From: Saprospiraceae bacterium
GTDB taxonomy: Bacteria; Bacteroidota; Bacteroidia; Chitinophagales; Saprospiraceae
Length of the DNA stretch: 35,503 bases
Assembly: GCA_028277915.1 (NCBI GenBank)
Contig: JANQFJ010000346.1
Location: 1 to 35,503, forward strand
Direction: 5' to 3'
The notes beneath the pieces are model-generated. The model made no database searches, had not been told where the DNA came from, and saw nothing but the letters and a program-made list of their open reading frames with translations. Made by a program: the position numbers and the translations under genes. Of this stretch, positions 20,645 through 34,034 are shown in pieces; the first letter of the stretch is position 1; each line of letters begins with the position of its first letter.

Positions 20645-23600
20645 CTATTCGCTCAAGCCCCAAACCCAGTTCCCTTTTGTATCGAAATACCCCAACTTAT
20701 CACCCTGCTCCACTCTGAAAAGACCTCGCCCTGCATAACTGATATACTCATAATCCGGCCGAACGATTAAATCCCCTTGTAAATTGGTAAGTCCACTAAA
20801 TGATTTGATCCTGACCTGTGCATAGCCGTTTTTAAACTTTTCAATTTTGTCGTACTTCGGAGGGATGATCTCAATTCCTTTTTGATTGACAATTCCCCAC
20901 TGACCATTCTGAGTGGATTGGACCACTGCAATTCCATGTTGAAATTCCCCAGCTTTCAGATAAACGCCATCATACATTTTGGCTTGCTGGGTGATGTAAT
21001 AAAATTGATAATTGGCATCTCGAACCAAGCCTCTTCCATCGCTAAAATCATACAGGCGATTGATGCTAGGCTCAATAATATAATTGCCATACAGGTCGAT
21101 CAATCCACCCTTTTTATACCCTTTGTAAACTACAGCCTTTCCATCTTCAAAATCGAGACATTTAGAAAATTCACGGGCGATAATTTCTTTTCCTTCTTTA
21201 TTAATATACCCGCAAAGCCCTTCTTTTTGGACGACCGCTCTGCCCTCATTAAAAGCTGATACTTTTGAATAAATAGCCGAAACTACCAATTTGCCATTTG
21301 TATTGATAAAACCATATCGGTCTCTAAATTTCACAGCAGCCATACCTTCGCTGAATGGTCCAATTTTTTTAAAAGCTTTATTGGTAACGATCTTTCCACT
21401 TCTGTTGATCAATTTATACCGAATCTTTGAATTTCCGATTTGTACTACCGCCAAATCGTTTTCATCAAAATCACTAATAAATGAAAACTGCGGATTTAAG
21501 ATATATTTGCCGGATGCATCGATCAACCCATACTTCCCATTGACTACAACTCTTGCAACACCGCTGTCAAAATCAAAAGCTTTATCAAATTTGGGATCAA
21601 TAATGAAGTTGTTGTTTGCATCAATATAACCGCTGCCTTTGGGAGTGTAAACCCATGCTAATCCATTTTTAAGATTACCCAAACGAGTGTATTGAAAATT
21701 GATAACCACATCACCTTGCTTATTGATCATTCCCCACTTGTTCCCTAACTTAACGGCAGCTAGATTGTTATGGAAGTTTTTGACAAACTTAAAGCGACAA
21801 GGGATTACCTCCAGCCCTTCCTCGTTGACATATCCCCAGAGACCATTTCGTTTGACAGCAAGTCTATCCTCACTAAAGCCTCCCAATTCGTCGTACCTCA
21901 AATTGACTGTGACACGGCCCAAAGTATCAATTAAACCATACTTTTTGTCATTATTATAAATCCGTAAAATCTTGTTATTGGTATTTTCCAAAAAATGTAT
22001 TCCATCGTAATCAAAAGGGATCAAAACTTTGTCGGTTGCATCAACCAGCCCCCATTTTCCTTCATATTGAACGATCCCAACTTCGTTTACAAAATCCCTT
22101 GCGAAGGAAAATTGCGGTTGCACAACGATCGTCCCAGATGTGTCCACATATCCCCATTCGCATTCCTCACAAATAATTTCAGCATCTTCTTTAAATTCTT
22201 TGTCATAAATCGTATAATCAATTAACTCATTTTTCGTAATCATTTGAGTAAGAAATTCTGATAGGTTTCCCAAGCCATAGGTTTTATTTTTAAAACTCCC
22301 TGATAGTCGACCTTTTATACTCATCCTGGCAACGCCATCTTGAAAATCTCCAATGAAAGCACAATTCTTTTTCAGCATTAATCCAACCGGCTTACGACTC
22401 ACCAATCCATGACGACCATTATTAAACACAACTCTTGCACTATTATGCCCATTTTCAAAATCACTCAACCGAATGTCCCACATATTTACCTCGGTGACTA
22501 GCAAACCAACTTCATTGTTGACCATTCCATAAACCGTATGAAATCGATAATTGGTTCTCTCAAATTGATAATATCCAAGTTGTTCGATGCCAACAATGGT
22601 GAAGCCATATTCTCTTTCTACCTGAATAAAATCAAAGGAAGGTTTGATTTGCTCGGTTCCGTCTTCTAATTTTCGAAGTCCCCATTTGTCCTCTTCAGAG
22701 GAATAAAACCACTCAAATTTATTTAAAGTATAATCGTTTTCTGGTAAACCAAATCGATTGGGGAATCTACGGACTCCCTTCTTTTTCCCGATTGTGATGG
22801 TATAGTGCTTTTTAAAGCTGCTTTCATCTTTAAGCAAACCTTCTTCATCCAGATAAAACAGGCTCAATGCTTCTCCTTTAAACGCTTTGGCTTGGTCTTC
22901 TTCGAGTTCAATTTTATCAAATTCAATTGGAACAACCAATTTGCCCTGATAATTGACCACCCCAAAACGGTTATTGAGTTTGACATGACTATTTCTACCT
23001 TTTAAGGGGGCAATGTAATCAAAATCAAAGGGTATAATCAACTCATCATTTGTCGCAACAACCCCCCATTTTTTATTGACTTTTACACGAAATTGGTTTT
23101 CAGCAAAAACCTGGATTTCATTGTATTGAACAGACAGCACCAAGTTGCCGTCGACATCCATAAGGCCAAGCTGACGATCTATTTTGCACAAAATATATTG
23201 GGATGAAAAAGGATAAAAACCATCATAATTGTCTTCGGCGATGATTTTTTCAGCCGAAATGGAATAGAGGTAAGTTTGTTTTTCAGAGGTAAGTTTTAAA
23301 AAATTTGCAGAAATATTTTTAAAAGTCACATAATCGGGATTGAGCACATGTTTACCTGCTCCGTTGACTGCACCCCAAAGTTTATCTTTTTTATAAAAAA
23401 ACAAATCATCACTATATATCCTTACTTCATTGCATTGTGGAGTCAGAATTTCGAAACCAGTATCTGTCAACAATCCTTTTTTATCTCCTTTGTGTGTGAC
23501 AAAATAGTTGTTCCCGTATGGTGCAATCGCTTCATAGACCGGTTCACAAATACTTTTCCCAGAATAGTCAACTATTCCCCAAAGTCCATTTTTCATGAAA

Positions 23601-23980
23601 GCCAGATACCCACCATTCCATACATTGACTCTTTCATATCCTTTTTGTAAAACGACTTTACCTTGCAAATTGATTACCATCCATTCATCGTGGTCCATTA
23701 CGGCAATCATTGTGGAATCAAGGACTTTCAGGTCTTCGTATTTTGGCAAAATCACCTCCTGTCCGCCATTTCCAAGCATTCCTACTTTTCCATCCCTTTG
23801 CATTACAGCATATCCAAATTGCTTAAACTCTCCAATGGCATCATATACCGGCCGTTGGATAATTTCACCCTCAGTATCCATCAGCCCCCACTTTTTATTC
23901 AGCTTTATTGGAAAATATTGCTGAGCAGGCAAGCATATCTGGATGAGAATTGAAAACAAAACAATGAAAATCAATCGCAT
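20645..23980 (-). CDS. Giant exported WG-repeat protein
   Basis: About 1,111 residues from the ATG at 23980. A signal peptide (MRLIFIVLFSILIQICLPA-QQ) is followed by roughly 27 WG-type repeats of about 35-45 residues, each with a core like KWGLMDTEGEIIxxPxYDxI. Clear copies read KLWGAVNGAGKHVLNPDY, GKYGLIDASGKYILNPQF and GQWGIVNQKGIEIIPPKY; some near 390-570 are degenerate. The repeats pack into beta-rich scaffolds. No catalytic domain, membrane anchor or clear C-terminal type IX sorting domain is seen, so it is probably periplasmic or outside the cell. Function is unknown. A GTG at 24001 is in frame, but the ATG sits right at the signal peptide. Confidence 0.9.
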   Translation of the reverse strand: MRLIFIVLFSILIQICLPAQQYFPIKLNKKWGLMDTEGEIIQRPVYDAIGEFKQFGYAVMQRDGKVGMLGNGGQEVILPKYEDLKVLDSTMIAVMDHDEWMVINLQGKVVLQKGYERVNVWNGGYLAFMKNGLWGIVDYSGKSICEPVYEAIAPYGNNYFVTHKGDKKGLLTDTGFEILTPQCNEVRIYSDDLFFYKKDKLWGAVNGAGKHVLNPDYVTFKNISANFLKLTSEKQTYLYSISAEKIIAEDNYDGFYPFSSQYILCKIDRQLGLMDVDGNLVLSVQYNEIQVFAENQFRVKVNKKWGVVATNDELIIPFDFDYIAPLKGRNSHVKLNNRFGVVNYQGKLVVPIEFDKIELEEDQAKAFKGEALSLFYLDEEGLLKDESSFKKHYTITIGKKKGVRRFPNRFGLPENDYTLNKFEWFYSSEEDKWGLRKLEDGTEQIKPSFDFIQVEREYGFTIVGIEQLGYYQFERTNYRFHTVYGMVNNEVGLLVTEVNMWDIRLSDFENGHNSARVVFNNGRHGLVSRKPVGLMLKKNCAFIGDFQDGVARMSIKGRLSGSFKNKTYGLGNLSEFLTQMITKNELIDYTIYDKEFKEDAEIICEECEWGYVDTSGTIVVQPQFSFARDFVNEVGIVQYEGKWGLVDATDKVLIPFDYDGIHFLENTNNKILRIYNNDKKYGLIDTLGRVTVNLRYDELGGFSEDRLAVKRNGLWGYVNEEGLEVIPCRFKFVKNFHNNLAAVKLGNKWGMINKQGDVVINFQYTRLGNLKNGLAWVYTPKGSGYIDANNNFIIDPKFDKAFDFDSGVARVVVNGKYGLIDASGKYILNPQFSFISDFDENDLAVVQIGNSKIRYKLINRSGKIVTNKAFKKIGPFSEGMAAVKFRDRYGFINTNGKLVVSAIYSKVSAFNEGRAVVQKEGLCGYINKEGKEIIAREFSKCLDFEDGKAVVYKGYKKGGLIDLYGNYIIEPSINRLYDFSDGRGLVRDANYQFYYITQQAKMYDGVYLKAGEFQHGIAVVQSTQNGQWGIVNQKGIEIIPPKYDKIEKFKNGYAQVRIKSFSGLTNLQGDLIVRPDYEYISYAGRGLFRVEQGDKLGYFDTKGNWVWGLSE

Positions 23981-24365
23981 AGACAAAAGGGTATTAGGCA
24001 ACTGATAAAATTATTATCTTTTAAAATTCATTAACTTAATGTGAATGGAGAACAATTTTTTAAACGAATGGAAGCCAATTTTAAGTATTTTATAACACTT
24101 ATAATGAAAAACAAATCCAAAAGTAACAGAATACGCTAAACAAATGTCAAAAACCTTTTAATATTTGGCATTTTTAACATTTTACAAAACGAGCTATCCT
24201 TTTAAATCCCTCTGGTATCCGAATAAACACTAAAATTGAACTGTCATTCTTATAAAAAGAAAAAAACATTATAACTAATTTACAAATACAATTCGAAACT
24301 TTATAACTTACTCTGAATTTTAATTAAATCATACCGATCCAAATCATCCACTCAAAATCACCTAA
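23981..24365. other. Divergent intergenic region, 385 bp
   Basis: Very AT-rich gap between the WG-repeat gene (minus) and the PaiB-like gene (+). It holds a hairpin-forming inverted repeat at 24142-24173. I find no convincing reading frame, tRNA or exact TAnnTTTG promoter, though both gene starts must be served from here. Confidence 0.6.
24142..24173. repeat. Inverted repeat in the divergent promoter region
   Basis: AAATGTCAAA (24142-24151) pairs with TTTGGCATTT (24164-24173) at 9 of 10 positions, with a 12-bp loop and a following T-run. With no + gene upstream it is unlikely to end a coding transcript; it may be an operator or an unannotated small RNA end. Confidence 0.35.
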
Positions 24366-31928: not shown

Positions 31929-34034
31929 ATGACTCACAAACTTCGCCTTTTTCAAAGCATTTTACTTTGTTTTGTATTTTTCCAGCCATTCACATCAGCT
32001 CAATTTGTCAACTTTGAAGAAACCTGGAAGGAGTTTTTATCCGATCCTTTGACTGTCGATATCAGCAAGATTACAAAACCTTCAAAAGACCTAAAAGAAG
32101 ATTATGCAAAGTATTCATTGATGTTTGGAACAGTAGCTTTTTGTGCTGATAATGTTAAAGAGGCAGAGAAGTTGATGGCGGAAATCGACAAAACCGGTGA
32201 GTTTGTTTACAGCAAAATTCCTGGTTTTAAAGAAAGGTATGAAAAGTTGATGGCCAACACAAAAACCTACTACAAGGTTGAAAACCAATGGCTTAACTTT
32301 TTAAAATACGAAAATGTAACGCTTGAAGACCTCGACAAAATTGGTAATCCGTTAGTTTGTGAAAAAGGAACGCTCGCCAAATATGATTACATGAAAGCCC
32401 ACGCACTTTATTGTAAAGGGGATATTGCTTCCGCGAAAGCCAATTTTGAAAACCGCGTACTCAAACTTGCTGAGCGGACAACGCTTAATATCGAGGACGT
32501 CCAAGGACTTGCACCTTGTGTAAAAAACATGAAAAAGTTGTTCAATGATCTTCCTGCTTTAGCAAAGGCCTGGAAAGAATTTATTGACACTGATGTTTCA
32601 AATGGTTTTGACATGGATTTGCCTTTGATTGAGTGCAATCCGATCCCAAATATGAAAGAATACATGCTTCGCGCAGCCAAAGATGTTTGTGTTTACGGAG
32701 CAGAAAATCTTAAAAAAATTGAAGACTTACGCGCTAAAAATGCGCAGCCAATACCACCCGATCTGGGCAAAAAAATAAAATGGTTGAAATCAGAGGTTGG
32801 AAGATATAACGGCGATCTTGCCAACTTAAACAAAGCCTGGAAAGAATTTGTACCTTCAGATACGCTGAAAAGCAATATCGAATACCTATTTGAATATTGT
32901 GAAAAAGATGCTCAAATCAAGGCTTACACTATCCACGGAACTATTCACGCTTGTGAAAAAGGAGCTGAGATGCTCGAAAAAATTGCATCTGTCAGAGAAG
33001 AATATAACCCAAAACTAGATAAAACAACTCTTGACAAAATCGCCAACCTCGAAAACAAACTCAAAAAATACGAAGATGATCATGCTGCTCTCGAAACACT
33101 TTGGGCAACTCTCATCGAAAATAACGATACGCTTTTTGAAGCCTATCGATTAGAAGGGTTTTACTGTGATAAAATCGCACAAGTGAAATCCTGGACAATC
33201 AAAGGGCTCATGAACGAATGCAAAAGGGGTCAGCAGTATCTGGAGTTAATTGATGATTTGCAACAACAACACAGCCTTCAATTCGACGATGAATTATCGT
33301 GCCGCGTACTTCGCTTGCGACAAGAAGTTTGGGATTGCCGATACTGGGAATTGGTTTTACAGGCACGAAAAGAAACCCACGAAGAGCGGGAAAGGTTTGG
33401 ACCTCCTTCTGCATTGATCATGGAAGAGGAATTGAATAGCGACCAGCAACCCTGCCGAACCACTGTCAAGTATAATCCATTAGGAAATATTGGGATCAAA
33501 TACGTTATCTCGACTTTCCTTTGCCAAGAGATTGATTTGGCTAAGATGGGTGATCCTGAATATTACAAAAAAATTGCAGCCTGGGTGGATAATGAGGTGT
33601 TGCAAAAGTATTGCGAAGTAAGTATGCGCTGTAAGGAAGATTTCTTCATTTATCTTGAAGGTCACACTGACGGCCATGAGTTTAAAGGCGCTCGCTATAA
33701 AAGATCGCTTGATATTCCGGAAGGTACACCGTTTACCCATTTCGTTGATCAGGATACGATAGAAAAAACAACTTCACGTGAATTGACAACCTCACTCAGA
33801 AGTAACATGGAATTGGGAATTGCAAGGGCCTGGACGGTCAAAAATCAGCTCGATTTCATGGGAGTTCCGATCACCATTGGTGCCTGGGAGCATCCGGAAT
33901 CTGAAAAAGGTGGTGAATACCGCCGCATCGAAATTGAATTGAATATCACCAATTTGTTACTTGATTTTTATGAAAAAAGATTAAACGAACTTGTCGAAGC
34001 ATCTGGCATTGGGCCACGGCCAGATTCTTGCTGA
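31929..34034 (+). CDS. Exported Trp/Cys-repeat protein with OmpA-like domain
   Basis: 701 residues. A signal peptide (1-24) is followed by five helical repeats of about 88-94 residues, each opening with Trp in a WKEF-like motif (W33, W121, W215, W304, W392). Repeats 2-5 carry two cysteines exactly 18 positions apart (144/162, 236/254, 324/342, 413/431); repeat 1 keeps only the second (C72). Residues about 510-675 look like a divergent OmpA C-terminal domain: YLEGHTDG (576-582), NMELGIARAW (626-635) and RRIEIEL (665-671), with an insert of some 40 residues after HTDG. This suggests a periplasmic protein bound to peptidoglycan, with disulfide-stapled helical hairpins. The gene is separate from cls by 96 bp. 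Function is unknown. Confidence 0.85.
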   Translation: MTHKLRLFQSILLCFVFFQPFTSAQFVNFEETWKEFLSDPLTVDISKITKPSKDLKEDYAKYSLMFGTVAFCADNVKEAEKLMAEIDKTGEFVYSKIPGFKERYEKLMANTKTYYKVENQWLNFLKYENVTLEDLDKIGNPLVCEKGTLAKYDYMKAHALYCKGDIASAKANFENRVLKLAERTTLNIEDVQGLAPCVKNMKKLFNDLPALAKAWKEFIDTDVSNGFDMDLPLIECNPIPNMKEYMLRAAKDVCVYGAENLKKIEDLRAKNAQPIPPDLGKKIKWLKSEVGRYNGDLANLNKAWKEFVPSDTLKSNIEYLFEYCEKDAQIKAYTIHGTIHACEKGAEMLEKIASVREEYNPKLDKTTLDKIANLENKLKKYEDDHAALETLWATLIENNDTLFEAYRLEGFYCDKIAQVKSWTIKGLMNECKRGQQYLELIDDLQQQHSLQFDDELSCRVLRLRQEVWDCRYWELVLQARKETHEERERFGPPSALIMEEELNSDQQPCRTTVKYNPLGNIGIKYVISTFLCQEIDLAKMGDPEYYKKIAAWVDNEVLQKYCEVSMRCKEDFFIYLEGHTDGHEFKGARYKRSLDIPEGTPFTHFVDQDTIEKTTSRELTTSLRSNMELGIARAWTVKNQLDFMGVPITIGAWEHPESEKGGEYRRIEIELNITNLLLDFYEKRLNELVEASGIGPRPDSC

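Follow-up and report, generated by a model that had tools for sequence, protein, structure and literature searches.

The gene at positions 31929..34034 (forward strand) of the window, meaning the whole 35,503-nucleotide stretch analysed here, encodes a 701-aa protein. This protein is read as an exported, covalently reinforced helical rod of adjustable length, which would be anchored to peptidoglycan in the forms that bear an OmpA-like domain. A probability of about 0.5 is given to this reading. Tandem three-helix units of ~88 residues would be exported to the periplasm by the Sec pathway, a divergent OmpA_C-like domain would hold the rod end on peptidoglycan stem peptides in the OmpA-bearing forms, and the array length (5-8 units) would set the reach. 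The features of the gene are the following.

31929..34034, forward strand: whole gene (701 aa), an open reading frame starting at ATG, without a conserved co-transcribed partner.
31929..32000, forward strand: signal-peptide-like N-terminus, residues 1-24 (MTHKLRLFQSILLCFVFFQPFTSA, followed by Q), from inspection of the sequence.
32013..32276, forward strand: repeat 1 (residues 29-116), putative N-cap, with W33 and only the second Cys (C72), from profile comparison, alignment and Cys inventory.
32277..32558, forward strand: repeat 2 (residues 117-210), with W121, and C144 and C162 bracketing predicted helix 146-162, from profiles, alignment and model.
32559..32825, forward strand: repeat 3 (residues 211-299), with W215, and C236 and C254 around predicted helix 239-251, from profiles and models.
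32826..33089, forward strand: repeat 4 (residues 300-387), with W304, and C324 and C342 around predicted helix 326-339, from profiles and models.
33090..33356, forward strand: repeat 5 (residues 388-476), with W392, and C413 and C431 around predicted helix 415-428, from profiles and models.
33357..33434, forward strand: remainder of the predicted long linking helix (454-502), leading into the OmpA-like domain, from the model.
33441..33953, forward strand: divergent OmpA_C/MotB-like domain (~residues 505-675), between repeat 5 and the terminal helix, from profile, fold and alignment.
33681..33791, forward strand: conserved insertion of ~37 residues inside the OmpA-like domain, between D581 and N626, from the alignment and the PorE spacing.
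33960..34031, forward strand: C-terminal cap helix and tail (residues 678-701, ...YEKRLNEL..GIG.RP..C701), also present in forms without the OmpA domain.

The window comes from a 4.3-Mb assembly in 352 contigs and its closest relatives are Saprospiraceae MAGs. Judged from homologue searches, the 701-aa protein is a member of a Saprospiraceae-only family that is absent from Pfam and NCBIfam. Members were found in Saprospira grandis, Aureispira, Lewinella cohaerens, Flavilitoribacter nigricans and many Saprospiraceae MAGs. The family is present in 57 of the 398 Saprospiraceae genomes searched; in a phylum-wide sample of 395 genomes it was detected only in the window's own genome. The protein gave matches at chance level only against Pfam, NCBIfam and PDB sequences, and no family was returned by the Pfam and NCBIfam profile searches, as expected from a preliminary description of this DNA that knew of no named repeat of this form. 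Viral contigs searched with the whole protein and with the repeat profile gave no match. Weak matches in another family of the same order (E ~1e-3, residues 341-413) were discarded; their loci resemble SCO1/DUF420 genes. By inspection, the N-terminus resembles a Sec signal peptide ending in ...FTSA/Q, which supports the signal peptide previously proposed, and the N-terminus of the 701-aa protein lacks a lipobox Cys. Members of the family keep the A-Q junction (A24 and Q25 invariant in alignment A1, Q25 in alignment A2).

The repeats were described from a regular pattern of Trp and Cys, and a residue recount gave exactly the positions first reported: Trp at 33, 121, 215, 304 and 392 (spacings 88, 94, 89 and 88) and four C-x17-C pairs at 144/162, 236/254, 324/342 and 413/431, 18 residues apart in every pair. 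Repeat 1 contains the second Cys only (C72). Outside this pattern, the protein contains W285, W422, W468, W473, W552, W635 and W653, and C14, C197, C458, C470, C509, C532, C562, C568 and C701. Invariance was scored in a 36-member alignment (homologues down to ~31% identity), and arrays and Cys were counted in 52 proteins. In the alignment, W33, W121, W215, W304 and W392 are invariant, as are C72, C144, C162, C236, C254, C324, C342, C413 and C431; together they make up 14 of the 36 invariant columns. Given this invariance across 36 homologues, the Trp/Cys pattern as aligned is not due to chance. The distance from the first Cys of a repeat (C1) to the second (C2) is 18 in 239 of 241 pairs (19 in the remaining two), and the distance from C2 to the next C1 is variable, mostly 68-78. 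Extra Cys recur in the middle of the second helix of the unit (helix B) in several lineages (L036, L040, L062, L035), at the equivalents of residue 63 of the window protein or at the ninth residue past the first Cys in other repeats, and they make the total of Cys after the signal peptide odd in many members. Such odd totals count against the covalent rod.

Profile-profile comparison confirmed that the five repeats are truly homologous (E 2e-16 for R3-R4, 5e-18 for R4-R5, 7e-12 for R3-R5, 3e-8 for R1-R2 and 1e-5 for R1-R4), with only weak similarity of R2 to R3-R5 (E 0.15 to 0.002). By these profiles, R3-R5 are canonical and R1-R2 divergent. An HMM of the unit, built from R3-R5, detects the canonical units and the additional units of longer members; R1/R2 are weakly detected in relatives, and in the window protein only R3-R5 are found.

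The structure was predicted with AlphaFold2 for the whole protein with the 36-member alignment (pLDDT 87.9, pTM 0.55) and for residues 205-505 alone (pLDDT 89.8, pTM 0.73). The low pTM of the full model leaves uncertain how the units are placed with respect to one another. In the models, each unit consists of a long helix A, a loop of 14-17 residues, a short helix B and a helix C. Helix A is 33-34 residues long in units 4 and 5 (residues 205-505 model). The first Cys lies 2-3 residues ahead of helix B and the second at the end of helix B or the start of helix C. In both models each C-x17-C pair is thus predicted to bracket a single helix of 13-17 residues, helix B. The invariant Trp would lie near the end of the ~33-residue helix A; this long helix would pack against the helix C before it with its first half and reach into the next unit with its second. 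By sharing long helices, the units would form a chain of helical bundles, and the 'rigid rod' of the preliminary description is plausible. Units of ~90-110 residues with three helices chained by a continuous long helix are also the design of spectrin repeats. The analogy concerns unit design only: spectrin repeats are not known to have such a Cys chain and show no sequence relation to the window protein, and Spectrin is not among the Pfam matches of the 36 members.

The preliminary description had also proposed an OmpA-like C-terminus. The domain is real by fold match and by its diaminopimelate (DAP) triad; it is a nested insertion, and the protein continues beyond it into a conserved terminal helix. 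Foldseek and structure comparison (VIA) gave it the beta-alpha-beta-alpha-beta-beta OmpA_C fold of OmpA/MotB/Pal. MotB 2zvz was among the best Foldseek matches, and the best VIA matches were MotB, 4b62, TssL and OmpA (MotB 2zvz: Z 10.7, 140 aligned, 3.6 Å; T6SS wall anchor 4b62: Z 10.3, 129 aligned, 3.0 Å; OmpA 4rha: Z 7.5; DAP-bound A. baumannii OmpA 3td4: Z 6.9). By hhalign, the domain was aligned to eight OmpA domains of the same genome with E 4.6e-6 and a 37-column gap at one place. PF00691 gave no match in the 701-aa protein at E 1 and none in the 36 family members at E 0.05; in the own-genome search it was found at 31 other places, none of them at the C-terminal domain of the window gene. 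A profile of this domain had no match among PDB sequences. It is therefore an OmpA_C-like domain below the Pfam gathering cut-off, and is not filed as PF00691.

PorE (PG1058) of type IX secretion has a TPR part and, like the window protein as read here, is a multi-domain protein of the Bacteroidota periplasm with an OmpA_C domain. PorE is a lipoprotein whose OmpA_C domain binds meso-DAP peptide via Asp576, Asn584 and Arg591 (PMC7192894). The equivalents of these residues, D581, N626 and R633, are invariant in 18 of 18 OmpA-bearing members. Unlike PorE, the window protein has no lipobox, carries Cys/Trp repeats and has a nested OmpA_C domain with a 37-residue insertion at the binding loop. Compared with OmpA_C/MotB/TssL-type domains, the fold (Z 10.7-6.9) and the invariant DAP triad are shared, whereas the spacing from D to N is 45 and not 8, two invariant Cys pairs are present and the domain sits before a C-terminal helix. 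The invariant Cys are C509, C532, C562 and C568; from their positions in the sequence, C509/C532 and C562/C568 are placed for hairpin or loop disulfides. The insertion (residues 585-621; invariant Y590, S593, L594, G599, T600, T603 and H604) has no counterpart in the compared OmpA domains of the same genome. It presumably adjoins the expected DAP-binding groove, where it may gate or alter recognition. Fold and triad together suggest that the OmpA-bearing forms, including the window protein, would bind peptidoglycan.

Two groups of relatives have no OmpA-like domain. It is cleanly absent from members of ~510 aa, in which the same terminal helix and tail (consensus YEKRLxEL..G.G.RP..C) are joined straight to the repeats, so wall binding is not the essential activity of the family. 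In the maximum-likelihood tree built from 52 proteins, two changes of the OmpA label are required; with midpoint rooting, the ancestor would have carried the OmpA-like domain, which may then have been lost twice. Both forms can occur side by side as paralogs, since one MAG (contig prefix JANSWP01) contains an OmpA-bearing (L033:8001-10109) and an OmpA-less member (L047:7983-9521). The array contains 5 units in most members, 6 in Saprospira and the first Aureispira paralog, 7 in the 652-660-aa paralogs and 8 in the 743- and 985-987-aa paralogs. Aureispira carries 2-3 tandem paralogs (~811, 743 or 652, and 987 aa; L035:8010-16444, L038, L039, L040, L036). At six loci (L062 included), the Aureispira tandem is followed by a gene for an exported endonuclease/exonuclease/phosphatase-like protein of ~325 aa.

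The main rival reading is an envelope scaffold, in which TPR-like bundles bind a partner, the OmpA_C-like domain localizes the protein and the disulfides only stabilize it. Such a partner could, for example, belong to wall synthesis or secretion, as with LpoA or PorE. The absence of the OmpA domain from two groups of relatives argues for it, as the repeats would then carry the core activity, and single units do match TPR-type proteins in structure: residues 28-116 match the N-domain of H. influenzae LpoA (Z 8.0, 81 aligned, 2.4 Å) and units match Rap TPRs (Z ~8, 89 aligned, 2.9 Å). However, a Z of ~8 is ordinary for helical models. Units match TPR proteins with Z 7-8 and 2.4-3 Å over 80-90 residues, and longer alignments are mostly at 15-26 Å. 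With the repeat region alone, Foldseek and VIA gave no match of E <0.63 and a Z of at most 8.1, which does not imply a novel fold. The 34-aa TPR signature is not found in the units; no TPR model matched the window protein, and a single one of the 36 members has a marginal match to a TPR-type model (0.023). A conserved neighbour or operon partner, which would speak for a scaffold, was not found in 37 loci: clustering gave no notable common neighbour outside the Aureispira-type tandem, and neighbours differ between genera. In the window, the flanking genes encode an acyl-CoA dehydrogenase and a cardiolipin-synthase-like PLD protein, neither of them a neighbour in relatives, and no Bacteroidota promoter pattern was found ahead of the gene. 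Elsewhere in the window (20645-24001, reverse strand) lies a gene for a large WG-repeat protein (1118 aa, 11 stretches of PF14903). The scaffold reading is on balance unlikely. In the covalent rod as well, the repeat surface would presumably dock an envelope partner, and the protein may act as spacer or scaffold.

The covalent rod depends on the pairing of the Cys, which was worked out from the Cys inventory and the helix positions in the models. The most likely scheme is a daisy chain in which C2 of repeat i would be bonded to C1 of repeat i+1. The proposed inter-repeat bonds are C72-C144, C162-C236, C254-C324 and C342-C413, and the C-cap would be closed by C431, probably with C470, and by C458, probably with C701. 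This scheme is preferred because it alone uses all Cys, at any array length, with a constant relation from repeat to repeat. It also explains the half-Cys ends as caps. Repeat 1 has C2 only in all full-length members of the 52-protein set, and the last repeat of the OmpA-less 652-660-aa Aureispira-type paralogs has C1 only. The first Cys of repeat 1, previously described as lost, is indeed missing, but from every member, which argues against decay and for an N-terminal cap without a preceding repeat to bond. The C-cap, with C458, C470 and C701, is kept behind arrays of 5, 6 and 8 repeats. In the model, C458 and C470 lie on the long helix 454-502; the turn that separates this helix from helix 434-448 has C431 and C470 placed symmetrically on either side, which is consistent with facing residues. 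The long loop from helix A to helix B would let helix B start back at the joint, consistent with inter-repeat bonds, and the fixed 18 residues would be the length of one helix spanning one unit. Alternating C1-C1 and C2-C2 pairing was rejected, since it breaks the constant repeat-to-repeat relation; it would leave no Cys unused in an array of 7 units but misfits 5-, 6- and 8-unit arrays with one C-cap. Mean-field DCA on only 145 adjacent repeat pairs, too few sequences, gave no interpretable contact pattern.

The preliminary description had instead proposed a disulfide within each C-x17-C pair, stapling two antiparallel helices. The constant spacing of 18 and the proximity in sequence would hint at such a pairing, but structure prediction does not bear it out: in both models a single helix, 13-17 residues long, separates the two Cys, one at each end of it. 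In the model, given helix 146-162, C144 and C162 cannot be less than ~16 Å apart, and bonds within the other three pairs are sterically unlikely, though chain length permits them. Intra-repeat pairing would also leave the invariant C72 and the lone terminal C1 of the 652-aa paralogs unpaired, and is judged improbable.

It is more improbable still that the Cys cross-link neighbouring molecules into a sheath or filament. The 2-3 tandem paralogs of Aureispira would fit such a use, and isolated repeats of CagY form multimers via disulfides (PMC2581425). CagY, of the Helicobacter Cag T4SS, has Cys-regular alpha-helical tandem repeats of variable copy number (PMC2581425). It differs from the window protein by its 38-39-aa motifs and as a type IV secretion sheath protein, and no sequence or domain relation was seen. 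Intermolecular bonding does not predict that the cap repeats are without exactly the Cys that faces no in-chain neighbour.

Among seven family-bearing genomes tested with Pfam, DsbB was found in none and VKOR in one (G238), which counts against a disulfide chain. In the other six of these Saprospiraceae genomes (G000, G294, G258, G377, G242 and G173), neither was detected by Pfam, despite their Cys-rich exported protein. The DsbB and VKOR counts would favour reduced Cys, a metal or cofactor site or some other use, a reading that is most improbable because the repeats have no invariant His and no CxxC/CxxCH context, the invariant Cys stand at helix ends of an exported protein, and those of the OmpA-like domain are placed for disulfides.

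The daisy chain has a precedent in Helicobacter HcpB/HcpC, in which each repeat is joined at its end, by a disulfide, to the beginning of the following one (PMC3851747). Like the window protein, they are exported and carry alpha-helical repeats in which the Cys are regularly spaced. HcpB/HcpC have two-helix Sel1 repeats of 36 aa and no OmpA domain, whereas the window protein has three-helix units of ~88 aa with a long shared helix. The unit, at 88-94 aa and three helices, is not a Sel1-type alpha/alpha repeat of 36-38 aa, and Sel1 had no Pfam match in the 36 family members.

Inter-repeat disulfides and OmpA_C anchors are already known; the repeat type and the Cys rule are new. This rule, half-cystine caps and one bond per joint, predicts the disulfides at any array length. 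A wider proposal is tentative and given less than even odds: that the family is a new class of disulfide-bolted alpha-helical rod, with an inter-repeat disulfide at each joint, half-Cys caps and a nested OmpA_C tie to peptidoglycan, forming a covalent periplasmic ruler whose length was altered in evolution by added units. If true, the family would be a natural design for a helical rod at the cell wall that is reinforced covalently and adjustable in length, and it would solve the problem of the Hcp proteins in a second way, unrelated to theirs. It would offer a testable envelope component for filamentous, gliding and predatory genera (Saprospira, Aureispira, Lewinella).
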